From assembly GCA_023015825.1 (NCBI GenBank), contig JALKAW010000001.1:1-64000 (forward strand): 64,000 bases of DNA, in the 5' to 3' direction. Of this stretch, positions 54,498-62,717 are shown piece by piece (within the stretch, counting starts at the first letter, position 1; each line of letters opens with the position of its first letter). Source of the DNA: Flavobacteriaceae bacterium S0862. Its GTDB lineage: Bacteria; Bacteroidota; Bacteroidia; Flavobacteriales; Flavobacteriaceae. The notes below the pieces were generated by a model, which had not been told where the DNA came from, searched no databases, and saw only the letters and a program-made list of their open reading frames with translations. The translations under genes and the position numbers were made by a program.

Positions 54498-55448
54498 ATG
54501 AGGCTACAAACGACTATACCACTTCAAACACAACAGCATAATCAAATAGATTATAACTCTAGTGTCTTGCTATTGGGTTCGTGTTTTGTAGAGAATATTG
54601 GTAGCAAACTAGACTATTTTAAGTTTCAAAATCTTCAAAATCCATTTGGTATTTTATTTCAACCTTTGGCTATTGAAAAGCTAATCACCAATGCCATTAA
54701 TGAAAAAGAATATATTGAAGACGACATTTTTTTTCATAACGAACAATGGCATTGTTATGATGCACACTCTAAGTTAAGTAATGCTTCAAAAGAAGACTTG
54801 TTAAATGATTTAAACAAGCAAATCGACATAATAGCTAAACAGCTTAATAACTCATCACACATGATAGTTACGTTAGGAACTGCTTGGGTTTATAGACATA
54901 CCGAAACAGATAGTATCGTTGCCAACTGCCATAAAGTACCTCAGAAGAAGTTTTTAAAGGAATTGCTTTCAGTTGATGAAATCTCAGAATCTTTGCAATC
55001 AATTGTGGAGCTAATTAGAAGCGTTAACAAGAAAACATCTATTCTATTTACAGTATCACCTGTTCGTCACCTAAAAGATGGGTTTTTAGAGAATATGCAA
55101 AGTAAAGCACATTTAATTGCTGCAATTCACCAAGTTGTTGAGCCAAGAAATAATCTCCACTATTTCCCATCGTATGAAATTATGATGGACGAGCTACGCG
55201 ATTATCGTTTTTATACTGAAGATATGGTGCATCCTAACCAAACAGCTGTCAATTATATTTGGGAGAAATTTCAAAGTGTTTGGATTTCAAATGACGCTTT
55301 TCAAACTATGGAAGATGTAAATATTGTACAAAAAGGAATACAACATAAACCCTTCCACCCAAATTCTGAAGCACATCAAAAGTTTCTAAAAAACTTAGAG
55401 CAGAGAAAAACACTTCTTCAAAAAAAACATTCTTTTATAGTTTTTTAA
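54498..55448 (+). CDS. GSCFA domain-containing protein
   Basis: A 316-residue cytoplasmic protein bearing the GSCFA signature (LLLGSCFVENIG, about 25-36), with later VTLGTAWVYRH and FTVSPVRHLKDG blocks. The fold resembles SGNH hydrolases, and the family (Bacteroidota, Proteobacteria) has no proven function. It starts 32 bases after alaS, across a dispersed repeat. Confidence 0.9.
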   Translation: MRLQTTIPLQTQQHNQIDYNSSVLLLGSCFVENIGSKLDYFKFQNLQNPFGILFQPLAIEKLITNAINEKEYIEDDIFFHNEQWHCYDAHSKLSNASKEDLLNDLNKQIDIIAKQLNNSSHMIVTLGTAWVYRHTETDSIVANCHKVPQKKFLKELLSVDEISESLQSIVELIRSVNKKTSILFTVSPVRHLKDGFLENMQSKAHLIAAIHQVVEPRNNLHYFPSYEIMMDELRDYRFYTEDMVHPNQTAVNYIWEKFQSVWISNDAFQTMEDVNIVQKGIQHKPFHPNSEAHQKFLKNLEQRKTLLQKKHSFIVF

Positions 55449-55561
55449 GTTATTTTTATTCTAAACATCAAGAATTGAAGTGGTTATAAAATCACACAAA
55501 CTTCCTATGATGTTTTAATAATTATGCTTCAAAACTTTTCATCTTTTTTAACGACTTCTTA

Positions 55562-55605
55562 TCGAAAAAAAACTTTTTGAATTCTAAAATAGTATATCTT
55601 CGAAC
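55562..55605 (+). promoter_or_regulatory. Upstream region of sRNA unit A
   Basis: TCGAAAAA at 55562 lies 44 bases before the shared 5' sequence TGCTATTAATCAA. A -7-like TATCTTCG occupies 55595-55602. Units B and C have the same box 44 bases before the same sequence. Confidence 0.55.
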
Positions 55606-55674
55606 TGCTATTAATCAATTTTTAAAAGGCGTCAGGAATTTCTGTTTAATCAGATTATTACTGATGCTTTTTTT
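55606..55674 (+). ncRNA. Tandem small structured RNA, unit A
   Basis: Predicted 69-base transcript. It begins with the 13 bases TGCTATTAATCAA shared by all three units. A ten-pair terminator stem follows (AAGGCGTCAG / CTGATGCTTT, two G-T pairs), enclosing an inner hairpin TCTG-TTTAAT-CAGA with the loop sequence GTTTA common to all copies, then a T-run at 55668-55674. It is the most diverged unit. It may belong to an Rfam family such as flavo-1, which I cannot check. No protein is encoded. Confidence 0.65.
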
Positions 55675-55700
55675 GTATAAGAGTTATTTTTTATCGTTTG

Positions 55701-55795
55701 TCGAAAAAATCTGCAAAAATTCTCAGTTGGTCTAGTTTAATCTAACACTAGTCGAAAAACACAACTAAGTTCTATTATTAAGTTTACATTTACAT
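55701..55795 (+). promoter_or_regulatory. Upstream region of sRNA unit B
   Basis: Two TCGAAAAA boxes at 55701 and 55752 are 51 bases apart; the second is 44 bases before TGCTATTAATCAA. The -7-like TACATTTA is at 55785-55792. Unit C has identical spacings. Confidence 0.6.
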
Positions 55796-55863
55796 TGCTA
55801 TTAATCAATATATTTGAAACGCTACTGACACTTGTTTACAAGAAGAAGTAGCGTTTCTTTTTT
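55796..55863 (+). ncRNA. Tandem small structured RNA, unit B
   Basis: Predicted 68-base transcript: TGCTATTAATCAA, then a perfect ten-pair stem (GAAACGCTAC 55816-55825 / GTAGCGTTTC 55848-55857) that encloses an inner hairpin CTTG-TTTA-CAAG (55831-55842), then six T residues. The stem differs from units A and C at most paired positions but stays fully complementary. Confidence 0.72.
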
Positions 55864-55937
55864 GTTTTTGTTTTATTGCTTTATTCAATAAACTGTAAAT
55901 GTTTTTTGTTACTTTTTTTACTGTTTTAGTGTTTTAA

Positions 55938-56032
55938 TCGAAAAAATTAGCATAATACTTCCGTTTATCTAGTATTCTATTAAAGTAATCGAAAAACACA
56001 AGAATGTTGTACTAATAAGGTTACATTTACAC
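55938..56032 (+). promoter_or_regulatory. Upstream region of sRNA unit C
   Basis: Two TCGAAAAA boxes at 55938 and 55989 (51 apart); the second is 44 bases before the shared 5' sequence. The -7-like TACATTTA is at 56022-56029. The central segment GTTnnTCTAGT is also shared with unit B. Confidence 0.6.
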
Positions 56033-56099
56033 TGCTATTAATCAAATATTTGAAGCATTAGTTGACGTTCGTTTACGAAAAGATCTAATGCTTCTTTTT
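56033..56099 (+). ncRNA. Tandem small structured RNA, unit C
   Basis: Predicted 67-base transcript: TGCTATTAATCAA, perfect ten-pair stem (GAAGCATTAG 56052-56061 / CTAATGCTTC 56085-56094), inner hairpin TTCG-TTTA-CGAA (56068-56079), then five T residues. It ends three bases before the stop of the convergent aminotransferase gene, so its terminator may also serve that gene's end. Confidence 0.72.
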
Positions 56100-56101
56100 G
56101 T

Positions 56102-57226
56102 TTAAGAGTATACTGAAATAATCGCTTTGTTAAACGCTACAACCTCTTCAGTAGTTCCTGTGCTTATTCTACACCAATCGTAAAAAGGTGGAAATGCACG
56201 ACCAATCATAACACCTTTGTCTAACATTTGTTTTCCAAGTGTATTTATATTTTTTCCAGATTTAAAGAAGATAAAATTAGTGCTGGACTTTACATAAGGT
56301 AATTCTAAATGGTCTAAGGTTGCATAAATAAGCTGTTTGGCTTCTTTTGTTTTTTCTAAAGAAAATTTAAAAAAATCTTCGTCTTTTAATGCTTCTTTTG
56401 CTCCTTCAATGGCATACACATTACTCATGGCAACGACATTACGTTTTATTATTTGAGCCAATTCAGGTTTAGCTATTAAATAGCCAATGCGCATTCCTGC
56501 CATTCCATAAACTTTAGAAAATGTTTTAGAAACCACTATGTTCTCACCCTTTTTAACCAACTCTACCATCGAAGGGTAATTAGGGTCGTCTATATATTCA
56601 TAATAAGCTTCATCGCTAAACACAATAGTCTTCTTGCTTACCGAAGTACAAAAGTCTACAAGAGCATCAGCAGGTAATAGAGTAGATGTTGGATTATTTG
56701 GGTTACACAAAAAAACCATTTTGGTTTTATTGGTAATTCTCTTTTCAATTTCTTGAAGGTCATAACCCATGTTTTTGTCAACGGGAACCCAATTAATATT
56801 TGCTCCCCACATTTCAGCATATTGCATCATGGCAAGAAAGGTCGGTTTTGCAGCAATGATTTCTCCTCCATCTGTAGTAAATGTGATACCAGCAATTTTC
56901 AATCCTTCAGTAGAGCCACCTGTAATAATAATGGAGTCTTTACTTACACCATGTTTTGCTGCTAACATTTCAGCTAATTCATCGGCATATCCATAAGGAT
57001 ATCTACAACCATCATCAAACGCTTTTTTAACAGCATTTCTAACACGTTGTGATGGTCCATAAGGATTCTCATTAGAACTTAATCTAATTGGATTACTAAG
57101 TTTTCGTGGGTTGAATTTTAGTTTTTCTTCTTTTGTTAAGGGTTTTATGGTCGTGAAACCATTTAAAAGTGTAAATCCGCCAGCTAGAGCAGTAGTTCTT
57201 ATCCATTCTCTTCTATTAAGTTCCAT
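56102..57226 (-). CDS. PLP-dependent aminotransferase (HisC-like) with Tat-type signal
   Basis: A 374-residue fold-type I enzyme of the histidinol-phosphate aminotransferase group. PLP contacts: GGSTEG (103-108), NPNNPT, SDEAYYEY and the Schiff-base Lys238 in SKTFSKVYGMAGMRIGY. The N-terminus reads NRREWIRTTALAGGFTLLNG, a twin-arginine signal (RR then a hydrophobic stretch), so the folded enzyme may be exported with its cofactor. No his operon is near, so it is unlikely to serve histidine synthesis. It is convergent with the small RNA units and downstream of rhodanese, same strand. Confidence 0.85.
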   Translation of the reverse strand: MELNRREWIRTTALAGGFTLLNGFTTIKPLTKEEKLKFNPRKLSNPIRLSSNENPYGPSQRVRNAVKKAFDDGCRYPYGYADELAEMLAAKHGVSKDSIIITGGSTEGLKIAGITFTTDGGEIIAAKPTFLAMMQYAEMWGANINWVPVDKNMGYDLQEIEKRITNKTKMVFLCNPNNPTSTLLPADALVDFCTSVSKKTIVFSDEAYYEYIDDPNYPSMVELVKKGENIVVSKTFSKVYGMAGMRIGYLIAKPELAQIIKRNVVAMSNVYAIEGAKEALKDEDFFKFSLEKTKEAKQLIYATLDHLELPYVKSSTNFIFFKSGKNINTLGKQMLDKGVMIGRAFPPFYDWCRISTGTTEEVVAFNKAIISVYS

Positions 57227-57625: not shown

Positions 57626-57641
57626 TGTAACTTGTGTTACA
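57626..57641. promoter_or_regulatory. Perfect dyad upstream of the TetR gene
   Basis: TGTAAC-TTGT-GTTACA, six-base arms, between the rhodanese and TetR genes. It could be an operator of either. It differs from the dyad before paaE. Confidence 0.4.
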
Positions 57642-57687
57642 GATTTTAGTATCTTCCATCATAATTTCTATAACAAATTTACAACTT

Positions 57688-58257
57688 TTGAAATACGAAA
57701 CACGTAAAGACGAAATCATACAAACATCAGCAATATTATTTCAAAAAAAAGGATATAGTGCTGTAACAATGAGGGACATTGCAAAAGCTATGGGAATTAA
57801 AGCAGCGAGTTTGTATAATCACATTAAATCTAAGCAAGAAATTCTTTCAGAGATAATAATTTCTTTAGCAGAACAGTTTACCGAGCAAATGAAAATTATC
57901 AAAAACTCTAATGATAGTAGTATAGATAAACTTAGGCAAATAGTGGATTTACATGTAAATATAACTACAAATAACCAATTTGGGATGGCATCTTTAAATA
58001 ATGATTGGATGCATTTAGAAAATGAATTGGAGTATTATTTAAATCTCAGAACAAATTATGAAAATGACTTTCGAGGTATTATTGAAGAAGGTATTCAAGG
58101 CAACGAACTTATCAATGGTAACCCTGAAGTAATGTTATTTTCAATACTCTCTACCTTGCGGTCGCTTTATATTTGGTTGCCAAAAAAAGAAGACTTAGAT
58201 ATTGAAAAATTCATAAACGAATTAAGTTTGGTACTCATTAACGGAATTAACCAATAG
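57688..58257 (+). CDS. TetR family regulator, probable repressor of the paa operon
   Basis: A 189-residue TetR/AcrR protein. The helix-turn-helix is YSAVTMRDIAKAMGIKAASLYNHIKSK (shown in two parts: VTMRDIAKAMGI and ASLYNHIK). The C-terminal ligand domain is not conserved enough to name the effector; phenylacetyl-CoA is likely from context. I prefer TTG 57688 (giving MKYETRKDEIIQTSAILF, the usual distance to helix 1) over the GTG at 57634, which lies inside a dyad. It is 68 bases upstream of paaE, reading the same way. Confidence 0.85.
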   Translation: MKYETRKDEIIQTSAILFQKKGYSAVTMRDIAKAMGIKAASLYNHIKSKQEILSEIIISLAEQFTEQMKIIKNSNDSSIDKLRQIVDLHVNITTNNQFGMASLNNDWMHLENELEYYLNLRTNYENDFRGIIEEGIQGNELINGNPEVMLFSILSTLRSLYIWLPKKEDLDIEKFINELSLVLINGINQ

Positions 58258-58273
58258 TTATCATTTTATTTTG

Positions 58274-58281
58274 TAAATTTG
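58274..58281 (+). promoter_or_regulatory. Candidate -7 box of the paa operon
   Basis: TAAATTTG matches TAnnTTTG exactly. The predicted start at about 58287 coincides with the left edge of a perfect dyad. Confidence 0.5.
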
Positions 58282-58286
58282 TAATT

Positions 58287-58308
58287 AAAACTAACAAGCG
58301 TTAGTTTT
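58287..58308. promoter_or_regulatory. Perfect dyad over the predicted paa start site, candidate TetR operator
   Basis: Nine-base arms AAAACTAAC and GTTAGTTTT with spacer AAGC, 22 bases in all. It sits just downstream of the -7 box and 18 bases before paaE, so a bound repressor would block initiation. TetR operators are typically perfect dyads of this size. Confidence 0.65.
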
Positions 58309-58325
58309 AATATTTAAACCTCAAG

Positions 58326-59399
58326 ATGGCAGATTTTTATAATATAAAAGTTAAAGATGTTTACAAGGAAACAAAAGATACTGTTGTTATTACTTTTGAT
58401 ATTCCCGAAGAGCTAAAAGACACGTTTAAGTTTAAGCAAGGACAGCATTTGACACTTCGAAAAGAAATTAATGGCGAGGATATTCGTCGAAATTATTCAT
58501 TGTGTACAAGTCCAATTGATAACCAATGGAAAGTTGCAGTAAAAACAATTCGCGGCGGTATATTCTCTAATTACGCTTTTAACGAATTAAAAAAAGGAGA
58601 AGAACTTCAAGTAATGCCGCCACATGGTGAGTTTTATGTCGAGATAGATAAAAATGTCTCTAACAATTATATTGCTTTTGCAGCTGGTAGTGGTATTACA
58701 CCAATGCTGTCTATTATAAAAACACATTTACTATTAGAGCCTAAAAGCACTTTCAAGTTATTCTACTTGAATAGAATGGTAAAATCAATTATCTTTAAAG
58801 AAGAGTTAGAGCAGCTTAAAAATCAGTTTTTTGGACGTTTTCAAGTATTTTACTTTTTGACTAAAGAAAAGCGGGATATTCCATTTTTAAATGGTCGTTT
58901 TGATAAAGAAAAATTAGCAGTTTTAACAAAAACGTTTATTGATATTCCAGATACCAATCATGCATTTATCTGTGGACCTCAAGATATGATTTTCTTGATT
59001 AGAGACGAATTACAAGCAGCTGGACTGGATAAAGAAAAAATTCATTATGAACTATTCTTTTCAGGAAGTTCAGAAGAAGAAAACAAGCACATTGCGGAAG
59101 TGATTGATGAAAAAGCAGATGGTACTAAAGTAACCATCATTGATGGTGGTAAGGAATTCCATTTTGTAATGGATGACGATTTTGATAATATTTTAGATGG
59201 AGCACTATCCGCAGGAGCAGATTTACCTTTTGCATGTAAAGGTGGTGTTTGTAGTACGTGCAAATGTAAAGTGTTGGAAGGTGAAGTAAAAATGAAAGTG
59301 AATTATGCACTTGAAGAAAAAGAAGTGGCACAAAACTTTGTATTAAGTTGTCAAGCAGTGCCTGTAACAGAAAAAGTAGTTGTAGATTTTGATGTATAA
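58326..59399 (+). CDS. paaE: Phenylacetyl-CoA epoxidase reductase subunit PaaE
   Basis: A 357-residue flavin reductase. FAD domain with RRNYSLCTSP, NAD domain with AAGSGITPMLS and CGPQDMI, and C-terminal [2Fe-2S] ferredoxin (ACKGGVCSTCKCKV plus distal Cys in LSCQAVP). It passes electrons from NADPH to the PaaA diiron centre. It is the first gene of the operon here and is followed after three bases by paaA; in E. coli it is the last of the five. Confidence 0.95.
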   Translation: MADFYNIKVKDVYKETKDTVVITFDIPEELKDTFKFKQGQHLTLRKEINGEDIRRNYSLCTSPIDNQWKVAVKTIRGGIFSNYAFNELKKGEELQVMPPHGEFYVEIDKNVSNNYIAFAAGSGITPMLSIIKTHLLLEPKSTFKLFYLNRMVKSIIFKEELEQLKNQFFGRFQVFYFLTKEKRDIPFLNGRFDKEKLAVLTKTFIDIPDTNHAFICGPQDMIFLIRDELQAAGLDKEKIHYELFFSGSSEEENKHIAEVIDEKADGTKVTIIDGGKEFHFVMDDDFDNILDGALSAGADLPFACKGGVCSTCKCKVLEGEVKMKVNYALEEKEVAQNFVLSCQAVPVTEKVVVDFDV

Positions 59400-59402
59400 A
59401 TT

Positions 59403-60359
59403 ATGAGCGAAGCACAAATTAAAAGTTTAGAGGAGGAATTTGAAGCACGTATAGCACGTGACGAAAAAATTGAACCTAAAGATTGGATGCCTGAAAAGTA
59501 TCGTAAAACACATATTAGGCAGATGTCTCAGCATGCACATTCCGAAATTGTTGGAATGTTGCCAGAAGGGAATTGGATATCAAGAGCACCTTCATTACGT
59601 CGCAAAGTGGCGTTATTGGCAAAAGTACAAGATGAAGGAGGTCATGGTTTATATCTTTATAGTGCAACCGAAACTCTTGGTATTACTAGAGATGAACTAT
59701 TTGAGCAATTACATACAGGAAAGGCTAAATACTCAAGTATTTTTAACTATCCAGCATTAACTTGGGCAGATATTGGAGCTATTGGATGGTTGGTTGATGG
59801 TGCAGCAATTATAAATCAAGTAGCACTTTGTGGAACGTCTTTTGGTCCTTATGCAAGAGCTATGGTTCGTATTTGTAAAGAAGAGAGCTTTCATCAACGT
59901 CAGGGTTACGAAATCACTTTAAAATTGGCTCAAGGAACACCAGAACAAAAGGCAATGGCTCAAGATGCGTTAAATAGATTTTGGTGGCCATCATTAATGA
60001 TGTTTGGCCCAGCTGATGCTGATTCTCCAAATACTGAGCAATCCATGAAGTGGAAATTAAAGCGTAAAACTAATGATGAGCTACGCCAACAGTTTATTGA
60101 CCAAACTGTACCACAAGCTGAGTTAATAGGATTAACTATTCCAGACCCAGACTTAAAATGGAATGAAGAAAAAGGAGGCTATGACTCTGGTGAGATTGAT
60201 TGGGACGAGTTTTGGCAAGTAGTAAAAGGTCATGGTCCATGTAATAAAGAACGAATGAAAGCAAGAGTATCTGCTTGGGAAAATGGTGAGTGGGTTCGTG
60301 ATGCTGCATTAGCTCACGCTGAAAAACAACAAGATAAAAAACTTAATAGAGCAGGATAA
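59403..60359 (+). CDS. paaA: Phenylacetyl-CoA epoxidase catalytic subunit PaaA
   Basis: A 318-residue diiron protein. Metal ligand motifs are present: QDEGGHG (about residues 79-85) and CKEESFHQR (about 158-166). With PaaC it forms the hydroxylase; it adds one oxygen atom to the ring of phenylacetyl-CoA to give the 1,2-epoxide. It ends two bases before paaB. Confidence 0.96.
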
Positions 60360-60361
60360 AA

Positions 60362-60646
60362 ATGAAAAAAGAATGGCCTCTTTGGGAAGTCTTCGTAAGA
60401 AGTAAAAACGGATTAGAACATCGTCATTTTGGAAGTCTTCATGCAGCAGATGCTGAAATGGCTTTGGAAAATGCACGTGATGTTTATACAAGAAGAAACG
60501 AAGGTGTAAGTATTTGGGTAGTCGAATCTAAAAACATAACGGCTTCAAATCCTGAGCATAATGCCGAATTATTCGAGCCAGCTCAAGATAAAGTATATCG
60601 TCACCCAACATTTTACGATTTACCAGACGAAATTAAACACATGTAA
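60362..60646 (+). CDS. paaB: Phenylacetyl-CoA epoxidase subunit PaaB
   Basis: A 94-residue protein with the PaaB start (WPLWEVFVRSKNGLEHRHFG) and VYTRRNEGVSIWVVES core. It bridges the PaaAC dimers of the epoxidase complex and holds no cofactor. The length is normal and spacing to both neighbours is under five bases. Confidence 0.95.
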   Translation: MKKEWPLWEVFVRSKNGLEHRHFGSLHAADAEMALENARDVYTRRNEGVSIWVVESKNITASNPEHNAELFEPAQDKVYRHPTFYDLPDEIKHM

Positions 60647-60649
60647 ATT

Positions 60650-61402
60650 ATGAATACTAATTTATATAATTACTTATTAGGGATTGCAGACAATAGTTTA
60701 ATACTTGGCCAGCGTCTAGGTGAGTTATGTGGTCATGGACCTTCATTGGAAACAGATATCGCTTTGACTAATATTTCTTTGGATTTATTTGGGCAAGTTA
60801 GAAGCTATTACCAATATGCTGCAAAAGTTGCTGGAGATAATCGCGATGAAGATACCATTGCAATGATGCGACCAGAACGAGAGTATGTTAGTGTATTATT
60901 AGTAGAACAACCTAATACAGATTTTGGATATGTTATAGCACGTCAGTTTTTGTTTGATGTCTATCATTATATGTTCTTGACTGAGTTACAAAACAGTAAA
61001 GATGAAACATTAGCGGCAATTGCTAAAAAATCCATAAAAGAAGTGTCGTATCATGTACGTTTTTCTTCTGATTGGATTAAGCGTCTTGGAGATGGAACAG
61101 AAGAAAGTCATAAACGAATTCAAAATGCCATAAACGATCTTTGGACATATACAGATGAATTGTTTCATCAAACAGAAGCAGATAAAGAAATGATTAATGA
61201 AGGTGTTGGAGTTGACACATCTAAACTTAAAGAGCAATATTATAAGCATATATCTGAAGTGTTGAATGAAGCTACTTTAGTAGTTCCTGACTTAAAGTAT
61301 TTTCAAAAAGGAGGAAAACAGGGTATGCATACAGAGCACATGGGATATATTTTAGCCGAATTACAATATATGCAAAGAGCATATCCAAACATGTCTTGGT
61401 AA
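60650..61402 (+). CDS. paaC: Phenylacetyl-CoA epoxidase structural subunit PaaC
   Basis: A 250-residue ferritin-like protein (LTNISLDLFGQVRSYYQYAA; DVYHYMFLTELQ; KEVSYHVRFSSDW). It resembles PaaA but acts mainly as a scaffold for it. It is followed by paaD after four bases. Confidence 0.95.
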   Translation: MNTNLYNYLLGIADNSLILGQRLGELCGHGPSLETDIALTNISLDLFGQVRSYYQYAAKVAGDNRDEDTIAMMRPEREYVSVLLVEQPNTDFGYVIARQFLFDVYHYMFLTELQNSKDETLAAIAKKSIKEVSYHVRFSSDWIKRLGDGTEESHKRIQNAINDLWTYTDELFHQTEADKEMINEGVGVDTSKLKEQYYKHISEVLNEATLVVPDLKYFQKGGKQGMHTEHMGYILAELQYMQRAYPNMSW

Positions 61403-61406
61403 ATAA

Positions 61407-61916
61407 ATGAATAAACCAATGATTGAGCATGCTGATATTGATACAGAATTAATTCCTATTCTAGACAAAGTTTCTGACCCAGAAATACCTGTGTTAACTA
61501 TTTTAGATATGGGAGTAGTACGTTATGCAAAGCTTGTTGATGATTTAGTTTTTATAAAAATAACACCAACCTATAGTGGCTGTCCCGCTATGGATGTAAT
61601 TGCAGATGATATAACAACTGCGTTTAAAAAAGCTGGTTACAAGGTTAATATAGACTTGATATTAACTCCAGCTTGGACAACCGACTGGATTTCAGAAGAA
61701 GGAAGAGATGCACTTGAAAAATATGGTATTGCACCACCTTTGGAAGCCGACGCCGATAAAGAAGCATTATTAGGTAATAAAAGAATAGTGAAGTGTACCA
61801 ATTGTGGTTCACATAATACAAAATTAGTAAGTCAATTTGGTTCAACAGCCTGTAAAGCATTATTTCAATGTGAAGATTGTCAAGAGCCTTTTGATTATTT
61901 TAAATGTCTTAAGTAG
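61407..61916 (+). CDS. paaD: PaaD, Fe-S/metal maturation factor of the epoxidase
   Basis: A 169-residue protein. An MIP18-like (DUF59) N-terminal domain (VSDPEIPVLTILDMGVV, CPAMDVI) is followed by a zinc-ribbon-like C-terminal domain with CTNCG and CEDCQ plus final Cys in FKCLK. It is needed for an active epoxidase, probably for Fe-S cluster assembly of PaaE. It lies between paaC and paaG. Confidence 0.93.
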   Translation: MNKPMIEHADIDTELIPILDKVSDPEIPVLTILDMGVVRYAKLVDDLVFIKITPTYSGCPAMDVIADDITTAFKKAGYKVNIDLILTPAWTTDWISEEGRDALEKYGIAPPLEADADKEALLGNKRIVKCTNCGSHNTKLVSQFGSTACKALFQCEDCQEPFDYFKCLK

Positions 61917-61934
61917 ACTAACAGAAAATAAGGT

Positions 61935-62717
61935 ATGAGCAATTCAATTCTATTAAAAATTGAAAACCAAATCGCATTTATAACACTCAACAGACCAGAA
62001 GTGTTTAATAGCTTTAATCGAGAAATGGCTTTAAGCTTACAAAGCATTCTTGATGATTGTAAAACAAATGATGAGGTTAGGGCTATTGTAATAACTGGTG
62101 GAGGAAAAGCATTTTGTGCTGGACAAGACTTAAAAGAGGTCACATCACCAGATTTAAATCCTGGATTCAAAAAAATCCTTGAAGAACATTACAACCCAAT
62201 CATTCTTAGAATCCGACAAATTGAAAAGCCAATCATTGCAGCTGTCAATGGTGTTGCCGCAGGAGCAGGAGCAAATATTGCGTTGGCTTGTGATATTGTG
62301 GTGGCAAATCAAAAAGCACATTTCATACAAGCCTTTAGCCTTATAGGATTAATTCCAGATAGTGCTGGGACATTCTTTTTACCACGATTAATTGGATTTC
62401 AAAAAGCCACAGCCTTAGCTATGTTAGGAAACAAAATAAGTGCTGAAGAAGCTGAACGCTTAGGTATGATTTATAAGTTTCTGCCTTCTGAAGAGTTTGA
62501 AGAAACGACGCAAAGAATTGCTCTAAAATTAGCCAATATGCCAACTAAGGCATTAGGGTTAATTAAGAAAACGTTTAATCAATCGTTAACTAATTCTTTA
62601 GAAGAGCAATTAGCACTAGAGTCAAAACATCAAATTGAAGCAGCTGGAACAGAAGATTATGCAGAAGGAGTTGCGGCATTTATAGAAAAGAGAACGCCAA
62701 ATTTTAAAGGAAAATAA
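61935..62717 (+). CDS. paaG: Ring-1,2-epoxyphenylacetyl-CoA isomerase PaaG
   Basis: A 260-residue crotonase-fold protein with oxyanion-hole motifs CAGQDLKEV (about 66-74) and GVAAGAGANIALACDIV (about 108-124) and SLIGLIPDSAGTFFLPRLIG (the Asp in IPDS is the PaaG-type base). It converts the epoxide to oxepin-CoA. PaaF is a close relative, but gene order and the IPDS motif favour PaaG. It is 18 bases after paaD and upstream of a dispersed repeat. Confidence 0.85.
   Translation: MSNSILLKIENQIAFITLNRPEVFNSFNREMALSLQSILDDCKTNDEVRAIVITGGGKAFCAGQDLKEVTSPDLNPGFKKILEEHYNPIILRIRQIEKPIIAAVNGVAAGAGANIALACDIVVANQKAHFIQAFSLIGLIPDSAGTFFLPRLIGFQKATALAMLGNKISAEEAERLGMIYKFLPSEEFEETTQRIALKLANMPTKALGLIKKTFNQSLTNSLEEQLALESKHQIEAAGTEDYAEGVAAFIEKRTPNFKGK

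Follow-up and report, generated by a model that had tools for sequence, protein, structure and literature searches.

Three tandem predicted small RNA genes in a Flavobacteriaceae genome share a conserved 5' block and may have a complementary partner RNA

What do three short units, set in tandem between two protein-coding genes of a Flavobacteriaceae bacterium, encode? They lie in a stretch of 64 kb that we analysed as a whole (the window), after a gene at 54498-55448 (+) and before an aminotransferase gene at 56102-57226 (-). The upstream gene, for which NCBIfam gave no family, is presumably of GSCFA type and, as we read the translation, is preceded by alaS. The downstream gene is hisC-like, under the equivalog cut-off; we take its N-terminal RREWIRTTALAGG to resemble a twin-arginine stretch, which would suggest export. 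Beyond it (57634-62717, +) lie what we assume to be a TetR-like regulator and then a phenylacetate-degradation cluster (paa-like genes, judging from the translations). ARAGORN found no tRNA in the window. We judge it fairly probable that the units, which we call A, B and C, are genes for seed-type small RNAs (sRNAs) that pair by their 5' ends with mRNA leaders. They would be paralogous and trans-acting, each with its own sigma-A-type promoter.

The layout of the array can be read directly from the window. A 13-base block, TGCTATTAATCAA, starts at 55606 in A, 55796 in B and 56033 in C. The upstream box TCGAAAAA begins 44 bases before each block (at 55562..55569, 55752..55759 and 55989..55996, all +), and units B and C have an extra copy 51 bases further up than the proximal one (55701..55708 and 55938..55945, +). 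Five of the seven plus-strand copies of TCGAAAAA within the 64 kb belong to the array. A -7-like box ends 3 bases before the block: TATCTTCG in A (55595..55602, +) and TACATTTA in B (55785..55792, +) and C (56022..56029, +). These coordinates confirm what the original prediction had said of the shared block, the 44- and 51-base spacings and the place of the -7-like box. Because the exact 13-mer occurs only eight times in the genome, three of them here, and the five copies elsewhere are not arranged with a -7 box and a terminator, the array exceeds chance. Positions 55701-55808 and 55938-56045 are 76% identical, which suggests that units B and C arose by duplication.

When 60 relatives were searched at the DNA level, the array was recovered whole in four further congeners and in fragments in a fifth. 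Five of the six genomes of the genus (G000, G001, G002, G003, and G005) thus have the complete array, boxes included, and G004 is fragmentary. In an oriented alignment of the five, the spacers drift, but every block, -7 box, and terminator is conserved, and the upstream boxes nearly so. The -7 boxes of B and C are identical in all five, as is the TCGAA of both distal boxes; some distal boxes carry single-base changes (in unit B, a later A is changed in two congeners). Homologues with the same spacing in related genomes, a check that the original prediction had named, were thus found. We also considered small proteins. No notable open reading frame runs through the region: the only one of at least 50 amino acids that crosses unit A is a 52-codon frame with a TTG start. 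The base that precedes GCTATT is variable, and the congener alignment shows no conserved frame; we rejected this reading. A predicted promoter and intrinsic terminator for each unit, with no conserved reading frame, is what a seed-type trans-acting sRNA should have.

Where would these RNAs begin? A TAnnTTTG-like sigma-A box sits at -12 to -5 in Flavobacterium psychrophilum, according to the available text of PMC9723704, and the -7 boxes of the array correspond to it. We searched 149 genomes for a strict box followed by 0-10 bases and then GCTATTAAT, which matched 49 genomes (about 21 for a reversed control, counted by eye). The G of the block lay exactly 4 bases after the -7 box in 40 of the 70 matches, and every other spacing had 1-9 matches; within the 40, the base preceding the G was T 25 times, A 11 times and C 4 times. 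This peak, together with the published position of the box, led us to take the G as +1. The conserved RNA 5' end is then predicted to be GCUAUUAAU, continued by CAA in units A-C, and GCUAUUAAUCAA is predicted to begin at +1 behind a TAnnTTTG-type box. On this basis we infer transcripts at about 55607-55674 (seed 55607-55618, terminator hairpin from 55624), 55797-55863 (seed 55797-55808, hairpin from 55816), and 56034-56099 (seed 56034-56045, hairpin from 56052), all on the plus strand and each taken to end with its T-run; B and C are supported also by their presence in the five congeners. The original prediction of three separately promoted RNAs is borne out at the level of sequence, with a predicted length of about 66-68 nt.

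The upstream box was sought as TCGAAAA, 30-44 bases, and then GCTATTAAT across 299 Flavobacteriaceae genomes, of which 89 had the pattern (about 39 for the reversed control, by eye). The strong evidence for the box is the peak in its spacing near -45 rather than the bare count of matches: TCGAAAA started 45 bases before the block G in 62 of 110 matches and 46 before in 15, with the other 33 spread over 37-51. An upstream box shared by the units, which the original prediction had tied to a common activator, therefore holds family-wide in 77 of 110 matches. The putative activator would bind TCGAAAAA about 45 bases before the start (exactly 45 in unit A), with a second site 51 bp further up in B and C. 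A LuxR-type regulator that lies beside units like A in other genera may be the binding factor, although its best match in the window's genome has only 33% identity.

Outside the genus, single units appear. The promoter end plus block is found in 148 of the 299 genomes, with up to 9 matches per genome, and the reversed control matched 37 genomes with one or two matches each (by eye). A separate scan of named genomes gave at least 118 stretches. Most of the 80 listed come from Psychroserpens, Winogradskyella, Lacinutrix, Gelidibacter, Bizionia, Xanthomarina, Galbibacter, and other Flavobacteriaceae, and the rest are scattered chance matches in unrelated bacteria. By our own hairpin rule, and with rows from unrelated bacteria included, the 176 distinct matches in the collected loci comprise 110 with a terminator-like hairpin, 39 with an open reading frame only, and 27 with neither; 28 of the 110 also have a reading frame, and a few of those are mRNA leaders or coding. 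Within the family, the block often precedes terminators of unrelated sequence. The block pattern also occurs in 42 viral contigs, of which three pass the hairpin threshold, and we set viral carriage aside since these three look like chance or coding matches.

One kind of unit has stems like that of unit A (GCGTCAG/CTGATGC-like). We collected 24 distinct A-type sequences, the window's own and 23 from other loci, and all 24 have TCGAA at 45-46. Two neighbourhoods recur, with genes read manually except at L151, the one locus where domains were tested: either alaS and the GSCFA-type gene precede the unit, as in the window, or the unit stands between a lipoprotein gene with a beta-propeller-like gene and a gene for a TPR histidine kinase. 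A LuxR-type regulator follows the kinase in four loci (L104, L130, L151, and L160).

In the predicted fold of each of the three units, 18-20 bases of 5' end precede one terminator hairpin, which contains an inner hairpin, and a run of T's (fold z of -3.97 for A, -4.07 for B, and -3.66 for C). The original prediction had ten-pair stems starting 19-20 bases into each unit. The paired stem, inner hairpin, and T-run stand, and the measurements shift: the outer stems have 12, 11, and 10 pairs, from bases 19, 21, and 20. A longer fold of unit C pairs part of the 5' end with the 3' tail. When the A-type sequences are aligned with B and C (26 sequences), the block is unpaired before the terminator hairpin in the minimum-energy fold of 25 members and paired in one.

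In the same 26 sequences, the outer stem is 99.6% paired, with two-sided changes at 3 of its 11 pairs, and none of 500 shuffles reached either measure. Further pair types in the stem were reached by 40 of the 500 and show no excess over the shuffles. The stem does covary, though only modestly. The covariation extends past the three copies, as the original prediction had proposed to check, and the claim that compensatory change reflects selection on the RNA is supported; B and C look duplicated, so that differences between units are differences between paralogues. The GTTTA loop, proposed as a binding site, was rejected as a conserved element: GTTTA is in the corresponding stretch of 8 of the 24 A-type sequences, in one of these 8 outside the loop by manual reading, and unit B of G003 has CTTG in its place. 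What had been overlooked is that the 5' block is the conserved element of the family and probably its pairing seed. The RNA would consist of a largely single-stranded 5' end that starts with GCUAUUAAUCAA and an intrinsic terminator hairpin free to drift in sequence.

Could the A-type units instead act in cis, as leaders or attenuators of the TPR histidine kinase gene? An apparent kinase reading frame begins within about 200 nt after the terminator in 13 of the 24 A-type loci, by manual reading. No such gene follows the unit in the window's genus or in L112, L144, L176, or L188 (the sequences of L111 and L121 end too early to judge), and B and C have no TPR kinase gene. We consider cis action improbable as the explanation of these units. 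In eight loci (L027, L029, L083, L086, L149, L156, L183, and L186) the A-type terminator lies directly before the apparent kinase frame, and units so placed may also be attenuators.

If A-C are trans-acting, their seeds should have partners. We propose that the seed pairs with AUUAAUAGC (or longer, to UUGAUUAAUAGC) at or just before a start codon and would block translation there, with exported proteins and two-component response regulators as the predicted targets. The site GATTAATAGCAA abuts the ATG of a gene for a 797-amino-acid secreted protein (C34), and is identical in 5 congeners while its flanks vary. This target was found through the complement pattern itself; the predicted duplexes with the sRNAs have 10-15 contiguous pairs at -13.5 to -18.7 kcal/mol. 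In G005, the sixth genome, the site was not found, and the nearest-looking match is within a coding stretch. The protein has a weak match to a T9SS tail (E 9e-5, 23.1 bits, under the cut-off).

The response regulators are encoded beside sibling sRNAs. A third class of block sRNAs (GCUAUUAAUUAGUUCUUAGGGAG) makes up most of those found 3' of response-regulator genes in nine loci, one of which is in the window's genome, at C22. The distance from the regulator's stop codon to the closest sibling sRNA after it is 44-267 nt. Four of the nine leaders contain the exact ATTAATAGC, and six contain CCCT, which faces the AGGG element of the sRNAs. At C22:155464-156212 (L309), a response regulator with a LuxR-type domain is followed by a block sRNA, and the leader of the regulator complements the 5' end of that sRNA, whose upstream region has a ATACGTATATATACGTAT palindrome.

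Broader searches for targets gave less. The full complement before ATGA occurs in 87 of 299 genomes (the reversed control, counted by eye, in about 26), and at 23 of 30 loci inspected no reading frame of at least 80 amino acids starts from that ATG; we dropped full-length antisense as a general test because these matches are mostly chance. Before the 638 genes of the collected loci, antisense seeds of 7-8 nt were not clearly enriched, and the 9-mer ATTAATAGC alone was (4 windows versus a shuffled mean of 0.2). A further candidate target is a 113-amino-acid secreted protein in G001 (L286) and G002 (L290), whose ATG follows GATTAATAGC at 13-14 nt.

The complement also appears in a second structured RNA gene, at C35:18655-18767 of the window's genome, G000 (L365, L404), 3' of a TPR histidine kinase/response-regulator pair. 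We call it the anti-block RNA. Its order is promoter, small hairpin (loop AUCCCUC), unpaired AUUAAUAGCAA, and terminator. Among 11 sequences, 9 of the 13 terminator pairs have changed on both sides, and the first hairpin hardly varies. Rfam gave no match for five anti-block loci at E up to 0.1. A model of this RNA matches 83 of the 299 genomes, with a single match in 78 of them. The block is present in 80 of these 83 genomes; among the remaining 216, it is present in 68 (Fisher p 4e-27, in a test that ignores relatedness and with the overlap read by eye). Three genomes (G150, G252, and G298) have an anti-block match and no block match.

The unpaired complement to the sRNA seed is conserved in the anti-block RNA, and it shortens to 6-7 nt in divergent members. 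The exact ATTAATAGC is in 19 of the 30 best loci, and the genome of L418 also has an exact site. Another ten loci lack it, of which nine could be tested: these variants pair with the block over 6-9 nt, four of them via a G-U pair, and when each was compared with 300 shuffles, 0-8 shuffles did as well in seven cases and 18 and 21 in the other two. Since AUUAAUAGC is at the start codon of the secreted protein, in four of nine response-regulator leaders, and unpaired in the anti-block RNA, these sites together support the seed reading. Furthermore, the anti-block RNA shares with the 797-amino-acid gene its promoter repeats (two CGGTTTT-like copies), the -7 box, and leader elements; on these grounds it resembles the leader of a target that stops early, at a terminator. 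It may be a sponge for the block sRNAs, mostly single-copy, that exposes unpaired AUUAAUAGC.

The same complementarity would be expected if the roles were reversed, with the anti-block RNA regulating GCUAUUAAU transcripts (for curlin and small peptides) and A-C and the other block sRNAs serving as decoys. That there is one anti-block match in most of these genomes and several block promoters fits such an arrangement. So do curlin-like genes with the block at the predicted +1, whose leaders of 24-25 nt start with it. The block complements that open response-regulator and secreted-protein mRNAs look like direct targets the other way, however, and the resemblance of the anti-block RNA to a target leader with its promoter is as expected of a sponge; we regard the reversal as unlikely.

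The curlin-like (CsgA/CsgB-type) genes are at nine loci (L274, L267, L191, L198, L125, L128, L157, L159, and L091; the curlin repeat PF07012 was tested for L274 only). Secreted peptides of 19-51 amino acids, the 19-residue ones read by eye, have block-initiated leaders in several genera (L597, L264, L110, L261, L107, and L153), including a 46-amino-acid peptide in the window's genome (C11:245433, L597), and a small membrane protein gene also begins with the block. These block-initiated mRNA leaders are 21-27 nt long. Either the anti-block RNA regulates such mRNAs, or the block has another function besides, in transcription or in binding a protein. It is mainly because curlin-repeat and small secreted-peptide genes start with the block, which a pure sRNA-seed model leaves unexplained, that we rate the seed reading no higher than fairly probable. 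The one fold in 26 that pairs the block and the lack of a target site in G005 lower our confidence slightly.

If the block works in transcription, it would be an initially transcribed sequence or +1 operator that tunes strong sigma-A promoters of sRNA and mRNA genes, and the sRNAs would work through something else or be by-products. The block is locked to +1 and opens curlin-repeat and small-peptide mRNAs as well, and TGCTATTA is by far the commonest 8-mer at this position behind 1357 TAnnTTTG boxes of the collected loci (30 occurrences, with the next at 5), although these loci were mostly selected by the block. Such an element does not predict that the anti-block RNA, the leaders of response regulators, and the vicinity of a start codon should all keep the complement, and we think this even less likely than reversed roles.

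CsrB is an sRNA of the protein-sponge kind. A-C would be sponges like it if the 5' block were the site of an RNA-binding protein, and the identical 5' end on sRNAs and mRNAs would suit that. In Bacteroides, RbpB binds single-stranded parts of sRNAs, according to the available text of PMC11697453. Each RNA here has a single site, though, and the complement is conserved elsewhere, which leaves a protein sponge a slim prospect.

Are these RNAs already known? No Rfam family reached its gathering threshold in the window, and none of 11 weak matches (E up to 10, over 55540-56120) is credible. The original prediction had suggested flavo-1, a motif that is likewise widespread in Flavobacteriaceae according to the available text of PMC9723704; its model is not among the 11 and does not match at the array, and the suggestion is not supported. 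Thirteen other sRNA loci gave only tRNAs in Rfam. FopS of Bacteroides (Rfam RF04319), as the available text of PMC11697453 describes it, is a set of paralogous sRNAs that bind their target mRNAs close to the start codon; it is multicopy and about 65-70 nt long, with a single-stranded conserved 5' seed, then an intrinsic terminator, and housekeeping sigma promoters. A-C are predicted to have this 65-70 nt architecture of seed and Rho-independent terminator, and the genome has three copies in the array and one with a terminator-like fold at C22:156195. The RF04319 model scores 18.3 bits against a gathering threshold of 56, on the minus strand at 55700-55762 and off the units. Unlike FopS, the block sRNAs lie beside two-component genes in other genera and have TCGAAAA boxes and a complementary partner RNA. 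We infer that they work like FopS; by sequence they are not FopS.

Rfp18 of Flavobacterium psychrophilum is an intergenic sRNA, needed for protease mRNA levels and proposed to pair with secreted-protein mRNAs through its third stem-loop, as far as the available text of PMC9723704 goes. A-C resemble it as flavobacterial sRNAs with proposed secreted-protein mRNA targets; judged by this description only, they differ in having a single terminator hairpin, with a smaller hairpin inside it, and no third stem-loop.

The block sRNAs resemble Vibrio Qrr and enterobacterial OmrA/B, which are siblings that share one pairing region, are tied to two-component control, and feed back on regulators, but the block sRNAs show no evidence of sigma-54 or Hfq. 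The literature that we searched holds one sRNA study in Flavobacteriaceae, on a fish pathogen, and no description of this sRNA family or of a network of this kind in Flavobacteriaceae; subscription papers and supplements were outside that scope, and RNAs there could overlap. The block sRNAs appear to be a large, new, unnamed family in marine flavobacteria. As regulators made of a seed and a terminator they are of a familiar kind; the family stands out by its unusual partner RNA and its links to two-component systems.

A larger proposal, on which we are evenly divided, is that a complementary RNA circuit spans about a quarter to half of Flavobacteriaceae. Many GCUAUUAAU RNAs (several classes of sRNA, and mRNAs for curlin and small peptides) would face one structured RNA and leaders with the complement. 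At least three of the RNA genes stand beside different two-component systems, so that the seed would link several phosphorelays with surface-protein genes. In the sea, Flavobacteriaceae have a major part in the breakdown of algal polymers. A seed in many genera, with a complementary partner RNA and two-component links, offers defined sites and mutants for the study of post-transcriptional control in Bacteroidota outside Bacteroides, and Meridianimaribacter, Gelidibacter, Psychroserpens, and Winogradskyella are relatives in which it could be tested. Longer block-initiated transcripts, with extra hairpins and a common GGGGTAAG segment, are seen at five other loci (L088, L184, L197, L154, and L145), two of them in Robertkochia.
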